From: a virus
Reading direction: 5' to 3' (one strand)
DNA: 64,000 nt
IMG/VR virus record: IMGVR_UViG_3300027782_005743
Coordinates: 1-64,000 of that record
A model generated the notes under the pieces. It had not been told where the DNA came from. It did no database searches and saw only the letters and a list, made by a program, of their open reading frames with translations. The position numbers were made by a program, and so were the translations under genes. Shown here piece by piece: positions 26,716 to 56,708 of the stretch; the stretch's first letter is position 1, and every line of letters starts with the position of its first letter.

Positions 26716-27585
26716 ATGAGTACTACTCCATTTGCATATAATCCTGGACATTCTACTATTGCTGGAACAACCAATTTAGTTGATTTAGCAATAGGCACAA
26801 CCGCTCAACACTATGGAGCTAATCCTGGAGGTTTGACTTGGTGGATGGGACCTGAAGATATAACTGGTTATCTAATTTGCAGGCCAGTACCTGCTGGAAA
26901 TCAGCCAACTCAAATGGGTGCAATTGGAACAGTCAGATTTGCTAGAAGCACAGCTAAAACTGATCAATCATTTTTGGAACTAGCCAATTATATCAAAAGA
27001 GATTTAGGCGGATCCCCTAACCTGGCTAGTGCATCAGCTGCTCTTACGTGGTTAACCGATAATGGCTATTGGACTTCATGGGTTCAACCATATATTGCAG
27101 GTTTATATAAAACAACATACAATGGATATTTTGCCGATTCGGTTAGTTTCTTTGCAACTGCAACTCCACAAGCTTTTTTAAACAATCCAATAACTGAAGT
27201 CCAAACAACATCTATTTTTGAACCAGCAACGGATGATGGGTCAGATTTTAGTTGCCAATGGTTGGGGTATTTTAAACCAGCTACTTCTGAAACTTATACA
27301 TTTTATACATCAAGTGATGATGCATCGTATATGTGGATCGGTGCAAATGCTCAAACTGGTTTTACGACAGCCAATGCAACGGTTAACAATGGTGGATTGC
27401 ATGGAACAACTGAAAAATCGGGATCAATTACATTAACTGCCGGCGTTTATTATCCAGTTAGAATTCAATTTGGCGAACGCGGTGGTGGAGATGTGTTAAC
27501 CTTTAATTACTCAACTCCGACTATCTCTAAAACGACTAATGTTACTGGATTAGTTTTCTATAATTCAACAACTAATAATTTTTAA
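26716..27585 (+). CDS. Adhesin with PA14-like carbohydrate-binding domain
   Basis: 289 residues. Residues 1-120 (Gly/Trp-rich, NPGGLTWWMGP) are shared with the next protein and probably anchor it to the tail fibre. Residues about 150-289 (QWLGYFKPATSETYTFYTSSDDASYMWIG, AGVYYPVRIQFGERGGGDVL) match a PA14/GLEYA beta-sandwich that binds glycans. Probably a receptor-binding protein. Tandem duplicate with domain swap. Confidence 0.75.
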   Translation: MSTTPFAYNPGHSTIAGTTNLVDLAIGTTAQHYGANPGGLTWWMGPEDITGYLICRPVPAGNQPTQMGAIGTVRFARSTAKTDQSFLELANYIKRDLGGSPNLASASAALTWLTDNGYWTSWVQPYIAGLYKTTYNGYFADSVSFFATATPQAFLNNPITEVQTTSIFEPATDDGSDFSCQWLGYFKPATSETYTFYTSSDDASYMWIGANAQTGFTTANATVNNGGLHGTTEKSGSITLTAGVYYPVRIQFGERGGGDVLTFNYSTPTISKTTNVTGLVFYNSTTNNF

Positions 27586-27600
27586 AAATAAAATATTATA

Positions 27601-28761
27601 ATGGCTAGTACAAAACCATTTTCTAGAAATCCATCACATACTGCAATTTCAGGGGTAACCAATCTTGGAGATATTGCAATAGGAACCTCTGCTCAAAACT
27701 ATTCAGCTAATCCAGGCGGATTAACTTGGTGGATGGGGCCAGACGAATCAACTGGCTATGTGATTGGTGCACCAGTTGCTCTAGAAAATCAATCAACTCC
27801 AATTGGATCAGTAGGAAATGTTCAATTTTGGAGAACCAATTCCTTAAGCGATTCTGAATTTCTTTCATTAGCCAATTATGTTAAACGGACATTCGGTGGA
27901 GCTGCTGATTTAGCAACTGCAACAGATGCTAATGTATGGTTAGCTGCAAACAATTACTATACAAACTGGACTTTGCCAGCAACTACAACTACTACGACGG
28001 CCGCGCCAACTACAACTACAACAACGGCAGAGCCAACTACAACTACAACAACGGCAGCGCCGACTATAATAACCTCTGGCCTTATTTTAAATTATGATAT
28101 TAGTAAGCCGGCCTCATACTCAGGCAGTGGAACTACTATAACTGACTTACAGGGAAATTCCAATGCAACAACCGTTAATAGCCCAACGTATACTTCTTCT
28201 GGAGGTGGCTACTTAACATTTAACGGAAGCAATCAATACTTTGTTACTAACACCTCATTAAATTCTAAATTATCACCAGCCAATACGTCAACCGTATTAT
28301 CAATATTTGTTTGGGTATATCCTATGGATAATGGTGTTATAGTAGCAGAATTAGGACAGGCAACGGCAAATACCTTATGGCATGATTCTCAAATCGAAAT
28401 GGTTGCTGGAACAATTAAATTTTCTGTTTGGAGCGGTGTTGTACAAAACTTATCATCATCTATTTCAACGCCTTTAAATAACTGGTATTATGTTGGGTTC
28501 ACTTATGACGGAACAAATTTAAGAGGATATGTTAATGGTTCATTGGCTGTAACTTCCGGTACAATAACCAGACAAACTCCTTATAACAACGGAGGCGGCG
28601 TAGGACTGCACTATGCAGTAGCTTCAGAGGATCTTACAAAGCTTGGAGATGGCTCGTATGCTAACATGAGATTTGGTGGAATGCAAATCTACAATACGGC
28701 ATTAACTGGCAACAACGTGTTGACTAATTTTAACGCAACTAAATCAACCTACGGTCTGTAA
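27601..28761 (+). CDS. Adhesin with Thr-rich linker and LamG/ConA-like domain
   Basis: 386 residues. Residues 1-122 repeat the N-terminal domain of the upstream adhesin (NPGGLTWWMGPDESTGYVIG). A threonine-rich linker of three nine-residue units follows (about 128-154). From about 160 comes a ConA-like LamG domain (LTFNGSNQYFV, FVWVYPMDNG, WYYVGFTYDGTNLRGYVNG). Probably a surface glycan-binding tail protein. Confidence 0.78.
   Translation: MASTKPFSRNPSHTAISGVTNLGDIAIGTSAQNYSANPGGLTWWMGPDESTGYVIGAPVALENQSTPIGSVGNVQFWRTNSLSDSEFLSLANYVKRTFGGAADLATATDANVWLAANNYYTNWTLPATTTTTTAAPTTTTTTAEPTTTTTTAAPTIITSGLILNYDISKPASYSGSGTTITDLQGNSNATTVNSPTYTSSGGGYLTFNGSNQYFVTNTSLNSKLSPANTSTVLSIFVWVYPMDNGVIVAELGQATANTLWHDSQIEMVAGTIKFSVWSGVVQNLSSSISTPLNNWYYVGFTYDGTNLRGYVNGSLAVTSGTITRQTPYNNGGGVGLHYAVASEDLTKLGDGSYANMRFGGMQIYNTALTGNNVLTNFNATKSTYGL
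27982..28062 (+). repeat. Three 27-bp tandem repeats coding a Thr linker
   Basis: Three in-frame units encode TTTTTTA[AE]P. Copies two and three are nearly identical, so the number could vary by slippage, changing linker length. Confidence 0.85.
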
Positions 28762-44195: not shown

Positions 44196-45173
44196 TTGAA
44201 TATTCTTAAGTTTAATGACTTTTTGCTGCTTGAGGCCAGTTTATCCAAACATGCAGATAAACGAATAACCGAACGTATTAAAGAAAGTCTAAAGGATGGA
44301 ACTTCCATTGACTTTCCAATTGAAGCACGCAGGAAAATTGCACTAACTGGCAGATCTCTTGCAGATGTGTCAAATGAGGCAACTCTGCTAATCAAAGACG
44401 AGTTTATGCGTCGTCTTACTAATAGAATAGAGCGCCCAGATTTTCCAGACGGTAACCGAATTGTTGTATTATTAGATCCACAATTAAAATACGGTCGTGA
44501 TACTTTTCCAATATCAGTATCAGTTACCTCAGAAACAGAAATAATCAATAAGAAAACTGGTAAAAAGGAAATAATTAAACGCACATATACTGGAGAAAGA
44601 TTGTGTATCTATATTGCAGATAATGTAATGACCACAGTTAAAGTGTTACCTGCAAATTATACGGATATTGAAATTGAAAAGGATTCACGAAATCATTTTG
44701 ATAATAAAAATATTGAAGCGGGTAATATTACAGTATTATCAGGCGACGCTGAATATATTATTGAATTGGATAAAACTGGAGAAATTAAGCATCGCACAGG
44801 TCAAGTATATTCAGGTCATGGTATTGTTACTGAAAAAGAATTTGCATTAACAACCGGTCGTAATATTAAAGTAAGCCTAGCATTTAGAAAAGATGAAAAT
44901 TTAACAGAAGTTGAAGTACGTTCAATACTTAACCGGGAATCTGCTAGAACTGATAAATTTATTAAAATTGAAGTAGTAATATTTGACATAGTAATATTAC
45001 CAGATGGAAAAAAAGAGATTAAAAGTACAAAAGTTCCAAAAACCCTAAGGGCTGGTGACCTAATTTCACTACCAATTGGCCCAGGTGGTAATTGGCAAAA
45101 CTGTCAAGTGGCAGATAGTCTTTTTGTAGACTATGCAAATCGCGGAGGAGCATTTTCACTTAAATATAAATAA
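44196..45173 (+). CDS. Tagged late protein, TTG start
   Basis: 325 residues. MNILKFNDFLLLEASL aligns with MKLLKFTQFVNE, which supports TTG at 44196; the next in-frame ATG would remove the tag. SLSKHADKRITERI follows, then strand-rich sequence (RIVVLLDPQLKYGRDTFPISVSVTS, RTYTGERLCIYIAD). No catalytic motif recognised. Inferred packaged protein. Confidence 0.6.
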   Translation: MNILKFNDFLLLEASLSKHADKRITERIKESLKDGTSIDFPIEARRKIALTGRSLADVSNEATLLIKDEFMRRLTNRIERPDFPDGNRIVVLLDPQLKYGRDTFPISVSVTSETEIINKKTGKKEIIKRTYTGERLCIYIADNVMTTVKVLPANYTDIEIEKDSRNHFDNKNIEAGNITVLSGDAEYIIELDKTGEIKHRTGQVYSGHGIVTEKEFALTTGRNIKVSLAFRKDENLTEVEVRSILNRESARTDKFIKIEVVIFDIVILPDGKKEIKSTKVPKTLRAGDLISLPIGPGGNWQNCQVADSLFVDYANRGGAFSLKYK

Positions 45174-45188
45174 CTGGTCGCTGCCCAA

Positions 45189-45196
45189 ATAAATAA
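45189..45196 (+). promoter_or_regulatory. Late promoter box
   Basis: ATAAATAA 20 nt before the ATG at 45217; heads the MoxR/metallopeptidase/VWA operon. Confidence 0.55.
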
Positions 45197-45216
45197 CTAA
45201 AAAATATACGCAAGTA

Positions 45217-46779
45217 ATGAGTAAAATTATTAAATCATATCCAGAGTTTTTAGCTGAAAACTTAAACCAAAATGAAGGATTTAGGGATATTGCAAAAAAG
45301 GCAGTAGGCTCAATTAAAAAATTCTTTGGAAATGGCGCAAACTATTTAACCGCACTAGCTGCCCAAATTAGTGGAAAGCAGTCAAATGATGGTGCTGATG
45401 ATACAATTCCATATGGTGTAACAATTTACCCAGCAGCATCTGATTTACAAGAAATTGGAGCAGATAATAATTACTCGCCGGAAGGGCTTGATGAAAATTT
45501 AATAGATGAAGAAGCTGTTCCATTAGAAGCTGGCGAAAGTATTGGTGGAGTTAGAAATGTTGACTATGATGGTTTAATGAGAATTGTTAAACGAATTGCA
45601 AATAATCCAGATAAAGGAGAAGAAGCACCACTTATGATTTGGGGAGCTCCCGGTATTGGTAAAACTGCAATTGTTAAACAGGTTCAAAAAATGCTAGGCG
45701 GTAGAATGATTGATGTTCAATTAACTACGTATGCACCAGAAGATTTCTTTTTACCAGTAGTTGATCCAGCAACTAATGACAATATAATGAGTCGTAGAGC
45801 TTCAAGGGTTCCACAAAAATGGTTACCTGTATATAATGAAAGTGAAGGAGACGAAGGTAATACAAAAGCAAATGGCCCAGACGGAATGGGTGGAATGATA
45901 TTTATGGATGAGTTATCCAGAGCATCTGAAGCAATTAGAAATATTGCCCTAAAATTTGTATTAGACAGAGAATTAGACGGAGGTTGGAAATTAGGAAGCA
46001 AATGGACAATATTTGCAGCGTCTAACCGTCAAGAAGATGATTTAACAAATTCTCAAGATTTTGGTACCGCATTAGGTAATCGTTTTCAACAGGTAAATTA
46101 CGTGCCAGATACTAAGACTTATGGAAAATATGCATCAGCTCAAACTGATTCAAGTGGAGTTGATACATTTGACCCACTTATTATATCATTCTTACAATGG
46201 TCTAAAGGTAAAGAATTTTTTCATAAAATGGATGCAAGAGCGGTTGCCTTTCCTAGTCCAAGATCTTGGGAAAAAGCTGCAATTGCTTGGAAAAATTTGA
46301 AAAAAGAAGCAGAGGCAGAAGGTTATCAATTAAGTGATAAAATGATTGAAGATGAAGCTCTAGCTCCAAATGTTGGAACTGAAGCAGCTACTGCATTTAT
46401 TGCATACTATCTTTTATCTAAGAAAATTGACTTAAAGAATCTTTATAAAGTTTATACTGAGCCAGATAATGCACCACTTCCATCAAAAACCAGAAATGAT
46501 GATTATGAATTGGACGTTGCATACATCTTAGCTTCAGCAATTGCATATGAGCATAGAGGTAAAAAATTAGATAATACTGAAATTGAAAATGTAGCTAAAT
46601 ATGCAATTCGAATTAATAATCCAACTGTTGCAATGCAAATAATGGGTGCACTAATTGAAATTCACCCATACTTAAAGACTTCCGGTACTCCAGAATTTGA
46701 AGCTTATCGTATTGCAATGAGACCGTTTTTAGCAGCATATCCGGGTTCAGCAAAGGATATTCAAAATTTAGAAAACTAA
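45217..46779 (+). CDS. MoxR-like AAA+ ATPase with tag-like N-terminus
   Basis: 520 residues. MSKIIKSYPEFLAEN fits the tag with L-A-E. After an acidic linker (to about 115) comes a MoxR/CobS-type AAA+ domain: IWGAPGIGKT (Walker A 143-150), MIFMDELSRAS (Walker B 227-237), ASNRQEDD (sensor 1) and ALGNRFQQV (arginine finger). A helical lid and C-terminal domain follow. MoxR ATPases act with VWA proteins as chaperones or remodellers. Two bases before its metallopeptidase partner. Confidence 0.85.
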   Translation: MSKIIKSYPEFLAENLNQNEGFRDIAKKAVGSIKKFFGNGANYLTALAAQISGKQSNDGADDTIPYGVTIYPAASDLQEIGADNNYSPEGLDENLIDEEAVPLEAGESIGGVRNVDYDGLMRIVKRIANNPDKGEEAPLMIWGAPGIGKTAIVKQVQKMLGGRMIDVQLTTYAPEDFFLPVVDPATNDNIMSRRASRVPQKWLPVYNESEGDEGNTKANGPDGMGGMIFMDELSRASEAIRNIALKFVLDRELDGGWKLGSKWTIFAASNRQEDDLTNSQDFGTALGNRFQQVNYVPDTKTYGKYASAQTDSSGVDTFDPLIISFLQWSKGKEFFHKMDARAVAFPSPRSWEKAAIAWKNLKKEAEAEGYQLSDKMIEDEALAPNVGTEAATAFIAYYLLSKKIDLKNLYKVYTEPDNAPLPSKTRNDDYELDVAYILASAIAYEHRGKKLDNTEIENVAKYAIRINNPTVAMQIMGALIEIHPYLKTSGTPEFEAYRIAMRPFLAAYPGSAKDIQNLEN

Positions 46780-46780
46780 A

Positions 46781-47536
46781 ATGAAGAAATTATTGGATTG
46801 GAATGATTATCATAAGTATGCAGATTTTACAAAGTCTGACTTGATACTTGAGGCAGAAGAGTCTGATCCAGTGTTAAAGAAGGTAAAAATAAAAGTAGAT
46901 TATGCAATTAGAAAAGTTGCAGTTAAATATAAATTTTTTGCCGATCTTACTTATAAGTTAAGAATTATCTACACTAGACAGATTAAAACCGCAGCCGTTG
47001 ATGGAACAAATATGTTTATTAATCCAGACTTTTTTGAACCGCTAACTGAAGATCAAATTGTATTTATTGTATGTCATGAAGTTATGCACTGTGCACTATT
47101 TCATTTTGCACGTATTCAAGGTAGAGATGGATATCGCTGGAATATTGCTGGCGACTATGAAATAAACTGGTTATTATCAGAAGATGGAATTCTATCATAT
47201 GACGAGATTAAGAATACTTTACGCGGTATGATTGAAAAATCCTATGCTGGTAAAAATGCTGAACAGTTATACGAAGATCCGGAAATGATAGTTCCACCAA
47301 AGGAAGAAGATCAAGAACAAGACACTACTGCTGGAGGTCAACAAGACGGAGATCCTCCTCCGGGTGGTGGAGGTAAAAAACCCAAAGAGGGCTTATTTCC
47401 TGGCAATATTATATACGACAAATCTAGCGGATCTTATGGTAAAGTTAATTCAATTGATAAAACAACTGGTGAAGTTGATTTTTCACCATTAAGCAAACAA
47501 GAAGCTGAAATTGAATTGAAAAAACTTAAAGCTTAA
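46781..47536 (+). CDS. Putative metallopeptidase (DUF2201_N-like), MoxR/VWA partner
   Basis: 251 residues. The start MKKLLDWNDYHKYADF is a loose tag variant with LILEAEE as possible cut site. QIVFIVCHEVMHCALFHFARIQGRD (about 92-116) has zinc motif H99-E100-V-M-H103, and WNIAGDYEINWLL follows, as in DUF2201_N. The C-terminus is Pro/Gly-rich and then a short strand domain. In bacteria this domain is usually fused to the VWA part; here they are split over two adjacent genes. Confidence 0.8.
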   Translation: MKKLLDWNDYHKYADFTKSDLILEAEESDPVLKKVKIKVDYAIRKVAVKYKFFADLTYKLRIIYTRQIKTAAVDGTNMFINPDFFEPLTEDQIVFIVCHEVMHCALFHFARIQGRDGYRWNIAGDYEINWLLSEDGILSYDEIKNTLRGMIEKSYAGKNAEQLYEDPEMIVPPKEEDQEQDTTAGGQQDGDPPPGGGGKKPKEGLFPGNIIYDKSSGSYGKVNSIDKTTGEVDFSPLSKQEAEIELKKLKA

Positions 47537-47540
47537 TAAT

Positions 47541-48692
47541 ATGAAAACAAACTTATCTAATATAGTTAAATTAGTAAATCCGAATGGTGCAAAAGGCGGA
47601 GGCAAAGGAGAAAGTGGAGAAGAATCAACTGATAATGGTATTGAAACTAAGACCTTAGAGAAACCTGAAGAATTAGGCGGTGGTACTGGAGAAGAAGAAG
47701 AAGAAGGTAAAGAAGAAGAAGGTAAAGAAGAAGAAGAAAAAGAAGGTTCTGGAAAAGGTAAAGGTAAACCTGGAAAAGAAAAAGGCAAAGGCTCAGGTGA
47801 AGGCGAATCTGAAGGAGATGGGCCAATGGTAGATGCAGATGATATTAATAATATTGAATCAAATAAAAATGTTGTTGTTCGAAATGATGTCCGTGCAGGA
47901 AAAGGCCAAGGTAAAGTAGTTGGACGAGGCACAGGCGAAGTTATTTCACCAGCTGAAGGTAATCGTATTGCTAAATCAGAAGGATATGATGAGCGTAGCC
48001 CACGTACAGAAGAGGAATGGAAGAAGGATGCAAGAACATCGGCTCAAACAAATCTTTCTAAACGAACCAAAAACATTGGTAGCGGAGCAGGAGCAATATA
48101 TCAAAGGATTATGGAGCTTACTGATCCAATTGTAGATTGGCGAGCTGAATTACGTAGATTTATAGGTAAACTTGCAAGTTCATCAGATTTTAAATTTCCA
48201 GCACGAAGATCAATTGGGTCAGGTGATTATCGCTATGGTATTAAATCCAAAAATAATGCTCTGGAAAATGGAATAATTGCAATTGACGTAAGTGGATCAA
48301 TTGCATCGGCTTTTCCAGAACTATTAGCTGAGGTTGTTGGAATTGCAAGCGCAAAGAAAATAAAGGAAATATCAGTTTTACCATGGAATGATAGAGTAGT
48401 TACTCCAGTAATATTTAAAAATTTTAAAAAACCAACCCCAGTTGATTTTGAAAAGGTTTCAACTGGTGGAGGTTCAAATGGAATGCCGGATGTTATGCGC
48501 TGGATTCAGAATAATGTAAAAGATCGCCCAGACTTTGTAGTTATTATAACGGATGGATTTATTCCAACTCTACCTACTGCTCCTAAATGGGGTAGGAAAA
48601 CCATTTGGCTAATATTTGATAATAACTCATTTGATGTACCTGCCGGTTGGGGTCAAGTTATTCATGCAAAAGGCGATGAACGCTATAAATAA
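47541..48692 (+). CDS. VWA-domain protein (DUF2201-like)
   Basis: 383 residues. The first 130 residues are a low-complexity Glu/Lys/Gly linker. From about 195 comes VDWRAELRRFIGKLASS, then a VWA fold with MIDAS residues in IAIDVSGSIAS (D249, S251, S253), the T/S-G loop in STGGGSNGMPD and VVIITDGFIP. This is the C-terminal half of DUF2201. It binds a metal and a partner, probably the MoxR ATPase two genes upstream. Confidence 0.85.
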   Translation: MKTNLSNIVKLVNPNGAKGGGKGESGEESTDNGIETKTLEKPEELGGGTGEEEEEGKEEEGKEEEEKEGSGKGKGKPGKEKGKGSGEGESEGDGPMVDADDINNIESNKNVVVRNDVRAGKGQGKVVGRGTGEVISPAEGNRIAKSEGYDERSPRTEEEWKKDARTSAQTNLSKRTKNIGSGAGAIYQRIMELTDPIVDWRAELRRFIGKLASSSDFKFPARRSIGSGDYRYGIKSKNNALENGIIAIDVSGSIASAFPELLAEVVGIASAKKIKEISVLPWNDRVVTPVIFKNFKKPTPVDFEKVSTGGGSNGMPDVMRWIQNNVKDRPDFVVIITDGFIPTLPTAPKWGRKTIWLIFDNNSFDVPAGWGQVIHAKGDERYK

Positions 48693-54728: not shown

Positions 54729-56708
54729 ATGGCAAAACAGAATAGCAAAACCGGCAAAACACCAATGCTTGATTCATTTGGTAAAGATCTTACTCAACTT
54801 GCCTTAGAGGGTAAATTAGATCCAGTAGTTGGCAGAGAGAAAGAAATACGTAGATGCAGTCAAATATTGGCTAGGCGAAAGAAAAATAATCCTCTCTTAA
54901 TTGGAGAACCTGGAGTAGGTAAAACTGCAATTGTTGAAGGTCTTGCTACCATGATTATTGATAAAACCTGTCCAAGAGTTCTATTTGATAAAAAAATAGT
55001 AACACTTGAATTAGCAAATTTGGTAGCAGGTACCAAATATAGAGGTCAGTTTGAAGAGCGCATGGAACAAATAATAGAAGAGGTTCAGGTAAATCCAAAC
55101 GTTATTCTATTTATTGATGAAATTCATACCTTAATTGGAGCAGGTTCAGCAAGTGGATCACTAGATGCAGCAAATATCCTAAAGCCAGCTTTGAGTCGTG
55201 GAGAAATTCAGTGTATTGGTGCAACAACAATAGATGAGTTTAGAGGATCAATTGAAAAAGATGGTGCTCTTAGCCGCCGATTTCAACAGGTTATAGTAAA
55301 TCCATCTACACTAGAACAGTCACGTCAGATCATTGAAAATATCCGATCTAAATACGAAGATCATCATTCAGTTAAGTATACTGATGAGGCCTTAGATGCA
55401 TGTGTTGCATATAGTGACCGATATTTACAGGACAGATTTTTACCAGATAAAGCAATTGACTTAATGGACGAAGCTGGGGCAGCAGTCCATATCAATGGAG
55501 TAGTTGTGCCAGACGCAATTAAGAAATTAGAAGAGAAATTTGTTGAGGTAAGTGCTAAAAAACAAAAAGCAGTTGAGGCACAACAATACGAAGCGGCAGC
55601 AAAACTTAGAGATGATGCTCTTAAAGTAATGAAAGATATTGATGATGAAAAGATTCAATGGGAAGAGTCATTAAAAATTAATAGGTTAACTGTATCAGAA
55701 GAAGATATTGCAAATGTTGTTGCAATTATGACAGGCATACCAGTTACCCGACTAAAGGGCTCTGAACTTGAAAGATTAGCAACAATGGCTAAATGGTTAA
55801 AGGAAAGAGTTATTGGGCAGTCTGAAGCAGTTTCTAAATTAACTAAAGCAATTCAGCGCTCAAGAGCAGGTCTTAAAGCTAAAAATCGCCCAATTGGTAC
55901 ATTCATGTTTCTAGGTCCAACTGGAGTTGGTAAAACTGAATTAGCTAAACAGTTAGCAAAATTTCTGTTTGATACAGAAGACTCCCTAATCAGAATTGAT
56001 ATGACTGAATTTGGAGAAAAATTTACAGCATCAAAATTAATAGGAGCTCCTCCAGGCTATGTTGGATATGAAGAAGGCGGGCAGTTAACCGAAAAAGTAA
56101 AACGTAAACCTTATTCAGTTATCCTACTAGATGAAGTTGAGAAAGCCCATCCAGATATTTTCCATACCTTATTACAAGTGTTAGACGAAGGCCATATGAC
56201 TGATGGTCTTGGCCGAAAAATAGATTTTAAGAATACTGTAATTATTATGACTTCAAATTTGGGAGTTAAGGAATTACAAGATTTCGGTGGAGGTATTGGA
56301 TTCTCATCGTCAACTCCATTTGAACAACAAAAAGAATTGGCGTCAGGTATTTTAAGAAAAGCGGTTAGTAAACAGTTTGCACCAGAATTTATTAATCGAC
56401 TAGATGATATTATTATATTTGAGTCCCTAAAGAAAGAGGATGTTGCTCAAATAATCGAAGTTGAATTGTTAGATCTTTATTCAAGAGTAAAAGAAAATGG
56501 TTATACTGTTGAATTAACAAAGTCCGCAAAAGAATTCTTAATTGAAGCAGGTTATGATCATAAATTTGGAGCTCGTCCATTAAAAAGAGCTATTCAAACT
56601 CATGTTGAAGATCTTATAGCTGAAGCATATATTGACGGTAAAATTAAAGATGGAGATCACTTAGTGATTAACCATAAGGCTAAAGATACAAAGTTAACTA
56701 TTAAATAA
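54729..56708 (+). CDS. clpC: ClpC-like AAA+ unfoldase lacking the N-domain
   Basis: 659 residues against about 810 for ClpC. The N-terminal substrate domain is absent; the protein begins near LTQLALEGKLDPVVGRE. AAA-1 has Walker A at 59-66 (GEPGVGKT) and IDEIHTLIGAG. A UVR/M-domain (about 264-310) includes EAQQYEAAAKLRDD. AAA-2 has Walker A at 396-403 and LLDEVEKAHP. GGGIGFSSS puts an IGF ClpP-docking tripeptide at 523-525, where ClpC has VGF. Likely feeds the phage or host ClpP. Confidence 0.9.
   Translation: MAKQNSKTGKTPMLDSFGKDLTQLALEGKLDPVVGREKEIRRCSQILARRKKNNPLLIGEPGVGKTAIVEGLATMIIDKTCPRVLFDKKIVTLELANLVAGTKYRGQFEERMEQIIEEVQVNPNVILFIDEIHTLIGAGSASGSLDAANILKPALSRGEIQCIGATTIDEFRGSIEKDGALSRRFQQVIVNPSTLEQSRQIIENIRSKYEDHHSVKYTDEALDACVAYSDRYLQDRFLPDKAIDLMDEAGAAVHINGVVVPDAIKKLEEKFVEVSAKKQKAVEAQQYEAAAKLRDDALKVMKDIDDEKIQWEESLKINRLTVSEEDIANVVAIMTGIPVTRLKGSELERLATMAKWLKERVIGQSEAVSKLTKAIQRSRAGLKAKNRPIGTFMFLGPTGVGKTELAKQLAKFLFDTEDSLIRIDMTEFGEKFTASKLIGAPPGYVGYEEGGQLTEKVKRKPYSVILLDEVEKAHPDIFHTLLQVLDEGHMTDGLGRKIDFKNTVIIMTSNLGVKELQDFGGGIGFSSSTPFEQQKELASGILRKAVSKQFAPEFINRLDDIIIFESLKKEDVAQIIEVELLDLYSRVKENGYTVELTKSAKEFLIEAGYDHKFGARPLKRAIQTHVEDLIAEAYIDGKIKDGDHLVINHKAKDTKLTIK

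Follow-up and report, generated by a model that had tools for sequence, protein, structure and literature searches.

A predicted capsid-targeting propeptide on the MoxR-type ATPase of a phage metallopeptidase-VWA operon

Three neighbouring open reading frames, at 45217-46779 (520 aa), 46781-47536 (251 aa) and 47541-48692 (383 aa), encode a MoxR-type AAA+ ATPase, a DUF2201_N metallopeptidase and a VWA protein, with gaps of 1 base and then 4 bases between them. The DNA analysed (the window, 64,000 nucleotides) is part of a virus record of 66,573 bases, IMGVR_UViG_3300027782_005743, a fragment that contains neither a protease nor a capsid gene of its own. Its genes include T4-type topoisomerase II subunits, an RNA ligase and a gp13-like neck protein. 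A second AAA+ machine, a Clp-type ATPase (PHROG 4871, ATP-dependent protease, E 4e-247), lies at 54729-56708, and the neighbours at 26716-27585 and 27601-28761 have alike starts (NPxHxxIxGxTNLxDxAIGT...NPGGLTWWM) and are apparently tandem paralogues. The features of the locus are as follows.

45165-45174, + strand: distal late-type box TATAAATAAC, which shares bases with the stop codon of the ORF before it
45188-45197, + strand: proximal late-type box AATAAATAAC; its distance of 20 bases to the ATPase ATG is the commonest one in this phage
45217-46779, + strand: MoxR-type AAA+ ATPase, 520 aa (Pfam, PHROG, alignment and structure comparison)
45217-45258, + strand: predicted capsid-targeting propeptide MSKIIKSYPEFLAE, with a predicted prohead-protease cut after E14 (between LAE and N)
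45268-45354, + strand: second N-terminal element, QNEGF plus an amphipathic helix (xNE before G; possible second cut after E20)
45631-46086, + strand: AAA_5 domain with Walker A GAPGIGKT and Walker B IFMDE (Pfam, alignment)
46781-47536, + strand: DUF2201_N metallopeptidase, 251 aa, possibly with a degenerate tag at its N-terminus (not significant)
47075-47089, + strand: HEVMH zinc-binding motif, residues 99-103
47541-48692, + strand: VWA protein, consisting of an E/K/G-rich linker, a DUF2201_N C-terminal remnant and the DUF2201 VWA domain
48276-48665, + strand: DUF2201 VWA-like domain with DxSxS and TD of the MIDAS

The Pfam comparison assigned the ATPase to AAA_5 (E 6e-7), the middle protein to DUF2201_N (E 2.8e-25) and the third protein to the DUF2201 VWA-like family (E 2.4e-10; IDVSGS with D249, S251 and S253, and TD at 337-338), and the ATPase also matched PHROG 1297 (E 5.7e-51). 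When compared with solved structures, the ATPase profile matched Midasin (E 4.9e-19), and the MoxR structures closest to its structure model were CbbQ2 and NorQ, including NorQ-NorD VWA complexes; FtsH chains also ranked high against this model. The ATPase thus has an AAA+ core carrying Walker A and B and its nearest solved relatives in the MoxR/midasin group, and the neighbouring VWA gene carries the MIDAS residues, as in MoxR-VWA pairs. The middle protein combines HExxH with the profile of the minigluzincin-like DUF2201_N family, and its model gave a weak fold match to M. jannaschii selecase (E 0.02). Ro60 was the sole match of the VWA profile among solved structures (E 0.003).

The residues expected to be catalytic are conserved in all three proteins. 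Walker A G146, G148 and K149, Walker B F229, D231 and E232, as well as N270 and R289, are invariant in 20 ATPases; H99, E100, H103, H108 and D125 are invariant in 12 peptidases, and D249, S251, S253, T337 and D338 in 12 VWA proteins. Given this invariance across relatives, the machine is probably active. The arrangement described in an earlier note made from the sequence alone, namely a MoxR-like ATPase, a DUF2201_N protein with HEVMH and a VWA protein with an intact MIDAS lying 1-4 bases apart, is present in full, and the proposed protein-remodelling function is backed by family, fold and conserved catalytic residues. The same note had remarked that the usually fused DUF2201 halves are split here. 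This is real, since positions 9-162 of PHROG 1314 map to the middle protein and positions 161-391 to the third, so that one usual gene is cut within its linker, but it is not unique. Splits recur in the window group, L018 and L021-L029, while the genes are fused in L014-L017, L020 and the N4-type phages. PHROG 1314, the DUF2201 metallopeptidase-VWA family, is named HNH endonuclease, and many RefSeq phages have this name in their annotation. The suggested relation to a CobS-like cyanophage protein is weak (PHROG 249, E 7e-6); N4 gp24/gp25 and the MoxR-VWA pairs of jumbo and huge phages are functionally closer.

A late-type box, ATAAATAAC, sits 20 bases 5' of the ATPase and a second one at 43 bases. 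In the literature, cyanomyoviruses have NATAAATA as their late box and T4 has TATAAATA (PMC2984593), and the window has the NATAAATA box shortly 5' of genes, as expected of T4-type late promoters. The exact TATAAATA is not enriched in the window (12 copies versus 12.6 expected), and as a candidate late box it was replaced by ATAAATAA(C) with position. This word occurs 27 times on the + (coding) strand versus 11.5 expected and 5 times on the - strand, and 16 of the 27 + strand copies stand 15-23 bases before an ATG. The earlier claim of a late promoter box holds for this enriched and positioned form, two copies of which precede the ATPase, but not for the exact TATAAATA, which occurs at chance number. 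Judging from the box before it, the ATPase would be expressed late. Just before the ATPase, a TTG-start ORF at 44196-45173 begins with the near-tag MNILKFNDFLLLEAS and has a late-type box 20 bases 5' (44167); it has no Pfam or PHROG match.

The ATPase N-terminus MSKIIKSYPEFLAE, with N as the next residue, corresponds to the T4-type capsid-targeting sequence pattern, [FYW]xx[FWY][ILV]xE within the first 30 residues, which ends in a gp21-type cut site. Because this pattern was first drawn from these N-termini, independent checks were used, with T4 and with scaffold repeats. The tag-like start noticed earlier on the ATPase clearly exceeds chance, as the pattern is present in 13 of the 105 window ORFs versus 0.58 expected, as judged from the remaining parts of these proteins (p 1.8e-8). 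The 12 loci of tagged relatives gave 26 matches versus 0.61 expected, and the 21 loci from N4-type or other phages gave 4 versus 4.27. In the T4 control (46 kb of T4), the pattern matches only ipII and ipIII, the two T4 proteins known to have a conserved capsid-targeting sequence (PMC9958956). The maturation site of T4 gp23 (FGSFLTE followed by A) also fits the pattern, at the end of a propeptide of 65 residues.

The twelve further tagged proteins of the window (at 737, 1200, 1727, 4090, 7721, 21707, 22338, 24578, 25096, 40483, 41845 and 59681) are candidate head-internal or injected proteins, and those scanned with Pfam have no family above the cut-off. Within the window, a late-type box accompanies 9/13 tagged genes versus 15/88 (p 2.4e-4), but this association is absent in the near relative G003 and in distant relatives, where GATATATA instead of ATAAATAA(C) is the common upstream word. 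As the association fails outside the window, it was not relied upon.

The near relative G003, a contig of 116 kb whose ATPase is 96% identical to that of the window, carries a gp23-type capsid protein (E 3.3e-42), and directly before the capsid gene it encodes a protein of 662 residues. The N-terminal half of this protein is a gp21-type S77 protease in which the histidine, serine and aspartate columns are conserved with T4 gp21, and its second half is a run of repeats, e.g. YSNYLAENLDAA and YSEYIAETLNEK. The combination of gp21-type protease and gp23-type capsid is thus present in G003, not in the window's own fragment. The prohead protease and scaffold of T4 are separate genes (21 and 22). 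The same protease-scaffold fusion occurs in G006, G007 and G009, the G007 copy being broken by masked bases. S77 protease-scaffold fusions with repeats of about 14 residues (YSxYLAENLDxxI) lie at L007:15410-17398, L099:6349-8223, L100:4802-6043 and L101:5223-7121. No S77 protease was found in the tagged contigs G010, G012, G013, G015 and G016, all of which are linear and probably incomplete, and an S77 search with a custom-built profile added no contigs.

A profile was built from 37 repeats of the protease-scaffold fusions of four relatives, with no tag included. It ranked the ATPase N-terminus YPEFLAENLNQN 1st among 18,437 window positions, with 22.3 bits versus 5.6 for the next, and the ATPase N-terminus was also 1st in L020 and L014. 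Since the propeptide mimics the scaffold repeat, the ATPase is expected in the prohead core. A second profile, built from 33 tagged proteins outside the operon and compared with an internal null, placed the ATPase N-termini of nine contigs beyond the null (empirical p 0.0009). With this profile, metallopeptidases are significant in some relatives (L014, L021, L023 and L024) and the VWA proteins never are. A tag on the window metallopeptidase was tested in the same way and rejected, as its N-terminus was not significantly tag-like (p 0.13). The second N-terminal element, xNEG[FIL] plus an amphipathic helix, is shared by most tagged ATPases, the ATPase of the Lak-B1 megaphage and a head-module gene of G007.

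In a tree of 38 ATPases, a split with 100/100 support separates a clade holding every tag from the N4-type and other ATPases. The tagged clade also holds every contig with a gp23-type capsid or an S77 protease above the cut-off, and the tag is also seen on the ATPase in distant phages that have a T4-type head. In N4-type and other phages the ATPases are short, and 20/20 of them lack the tag. L022, which lies inside the tagged clade, has neither tag nor extension.

Several known systems share parts of this arrangement. Coliphage N4 and other Schitoviridae likewise have a MoxR-type ATPase beside a DUF2201_N-VWA protein (gp24/gp25; PHROG 1297 / 1314), and about 440 phage records match this type of pair; however, gp25 is fused, the ATPase has no N-terminal extension or tag, and there is no gp21-type protease or gp23-type capsid. 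By description, the jumbo-phage MoxR protein (ASV44729.1) and its metallopeptidase-VWA partner (ASV44728.2) have the same three activities, but the VWA is fused to the peptidase and no tag is described (PMC7824862). In the huge phage LR756500 and the Prevotella Lak megaphages, an ATPase accompanies a fused metallopeptidase-VWA protein; the LR756500 peptidase starts with MKYIKSYENFIFEN, and the Lak ATPase has the INEGF element, but with a different first domain before it. In Prevotella phage Lak-B1 (L129:4266-9733), with TAG read as Q, the ATPase has 930 aa including INEGF, and the fused metallopeptidase-VWA 854 aa. T4 IPII/IPIII and Alt are alike in their short N-terminal propeptide cut by gp21 and in their packing into the head, but they are small proteins or an ADP-ribosyltransferase rather than an AAA+ machine. 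The MoxR ATPase p618 of ATV is a virion component which binds the VWA protein p892 (PMC4124505); ATV, however, is an archaeal spindle virus with no capsid tag described and no metallopeptidase.

T4 proteins that bear a capsid-targeting sequence are taken into the core, have their propeptide removed by gp21 and remain in the head; IPI then leaves together with the DNA and inactivates a nuclease of the host (PMC9958956, PMC3012670, PMC5694885). For MoxR-VWA pairs, the VWA domain is thought to bind the substrate peptide, which the ATPase ring remodels (PMC7159879). Our best reading, to which we give a probability of roughly 0.58, is that the ATPase becomes part of the prohead core, loses its propeptide to the gp21-type protease, travels in the virion and probably acts early in the next infection. 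Here, the MoxR-type ring ATPase would work with a VWA adaptor capturing the substrate peptide and a minigluzincin-like metallopeptidase, which is fused to the VWA half in most phages and is a separate protein in this large T4-like one. The ATPase would be made late, bearing an N-terminal propeptide that mimics the scaffold repeat of the protease-scaffold fusion. It would enter the prohead core, where the gp21-type protease would cut behind E14 of LAE and might also cut behind E20 of QNE, and the cleaved ATPase would stay in the mature head. Bound to the ATPase, the VWA protein would enter as well, and so, probably, would the metallopeptidase; in some relatives the partners may instead have tags of their own. 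Finally, the ATPase would most likely be ejected with the DNA and, as infection begins, act on a target in the host, like T4 Alt and the internal proteins.

The sequences themselves show the families, the intact catalytic motifs, the tag, the protease and capsid type of the relatives and the late-type promoter; packaging, cleavage, ejection and complex formation we infer. The proposal of the earlier note that the machine is assembled in or delivered with the virion fares differently for each protein. For the ATPase it is strongly favoured by the tag, the scaffold mimicry and the relatives' gp21-type protease and gp23-type capsid, and packaging of the ATPase in the head is highly probable. For the metallopeptidase the case is weak (p 0.13) and its packaging uncertain; for the VWA protein the indication is indirect, coming from its presumed binding to the ATPase. 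Ejection with action on the host is only slightly favoured.

Capsid targeting by itself does not separate ejection from a role in prohead assembly, which is the main rival. The tag would then bring the MoxR-VWA-peptidase complex to the prohead core to remodel or clear the scaffold or to process head or tail proteins before DNA packaging, with no delivery. The resemblance of the tag to the scaffold repeat itself and the late-type promoter suit such a role, which was also proposed for the jumbo-phage pairs by their authors (PMC7824862), and ATV p618, a major protein of the virion, has been linked to the development of the tail (PMC4124505). However, head processing in these phages is already the work of the gp21-type protease, and N4-type phages, which lack this protease and the gp23-type capsid, have the same conserved machine. 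There, gp24/gp25 sit between the RNA polymerase and DNA-metabolism genes, away from the structural genes, a position which favours a function in the cell over head processing and was counted for ejection over assembly. The fate of the T4 internal proteins, which remain in the head once such a propeptide is lost, with IPI later ejected, was counted on the same side. Moreover, AAA+ work needs ATP, the supply of which inside a phage head is doubtful. We consider the assembly role rather unlikely.

The N4 proteins also bear on another possibility, that the tag is real but serves otherwise, as in membrane or portal recruitment or as a degradation signal, and that the machine is purely cytoplasmic in the producing cell, as presumably N4 gp24/gp25 are. 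Although untagged homologues are numerous among N4-type and other phages and L022 lacks the tag, this is improbable, as the pattern is the same as in T4 IPII/IPIII, is enriched only in contigs of T4-head phages, and combines the scaffold-repeat likeness with an [ILV]xE cut site. Least probable by far is that the phage carries the genes as an accessory module for conflict or defence, of the MoxR-VWA ternary type. Such systems are described (PMC7159879), and a bpMoxR Pfam match falls just below the cut-off, but there is no VMAP, iSTAND, FtsH or beta-propeller partner, the third gene being DUF2201_N; the PADLOC matches are weak and at the level of the ATPase only, and the nearest families are phage families. 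The missing defining third components largely refute it.

The machine in phages, its families and the principle of capsid targeting are already known. In the literature searched, we found no description of the tag on such a machine or of its scaffold-repeat mimicry, no paper combining MoxR, phage N4 and VWA, and no tested function for the phage MoxR-VWA-metallopeptidase pairs, N4 being one of hundreds of phages that have them. With the tag, what was a loose guess at a part in assembly becomes a claim of place and time that can be tested: the head, a named cut residue and the start of infection. The tag also provides a reading rule: in uncultured large phages, proteins that start with a scaffold-repeat mimic ending in [ILV]xE can be listed, by sequence alone, as candidates for a place inside the head or for injection; in the window, this rule covers 13 proteins, mostly without a known family. 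More tentatively, and with somewhat less than even odds, large and huge T4-like phages may pack a whole AAA+ remodelling and peptidase machine into the head, addressed by a scaffold mimic and ejected into the cell, so that a host complex is taken apart or reprogrammed as infection begins. If the tag is an address label for packing into the head, the next host of this virus may receive the machine ready-made.
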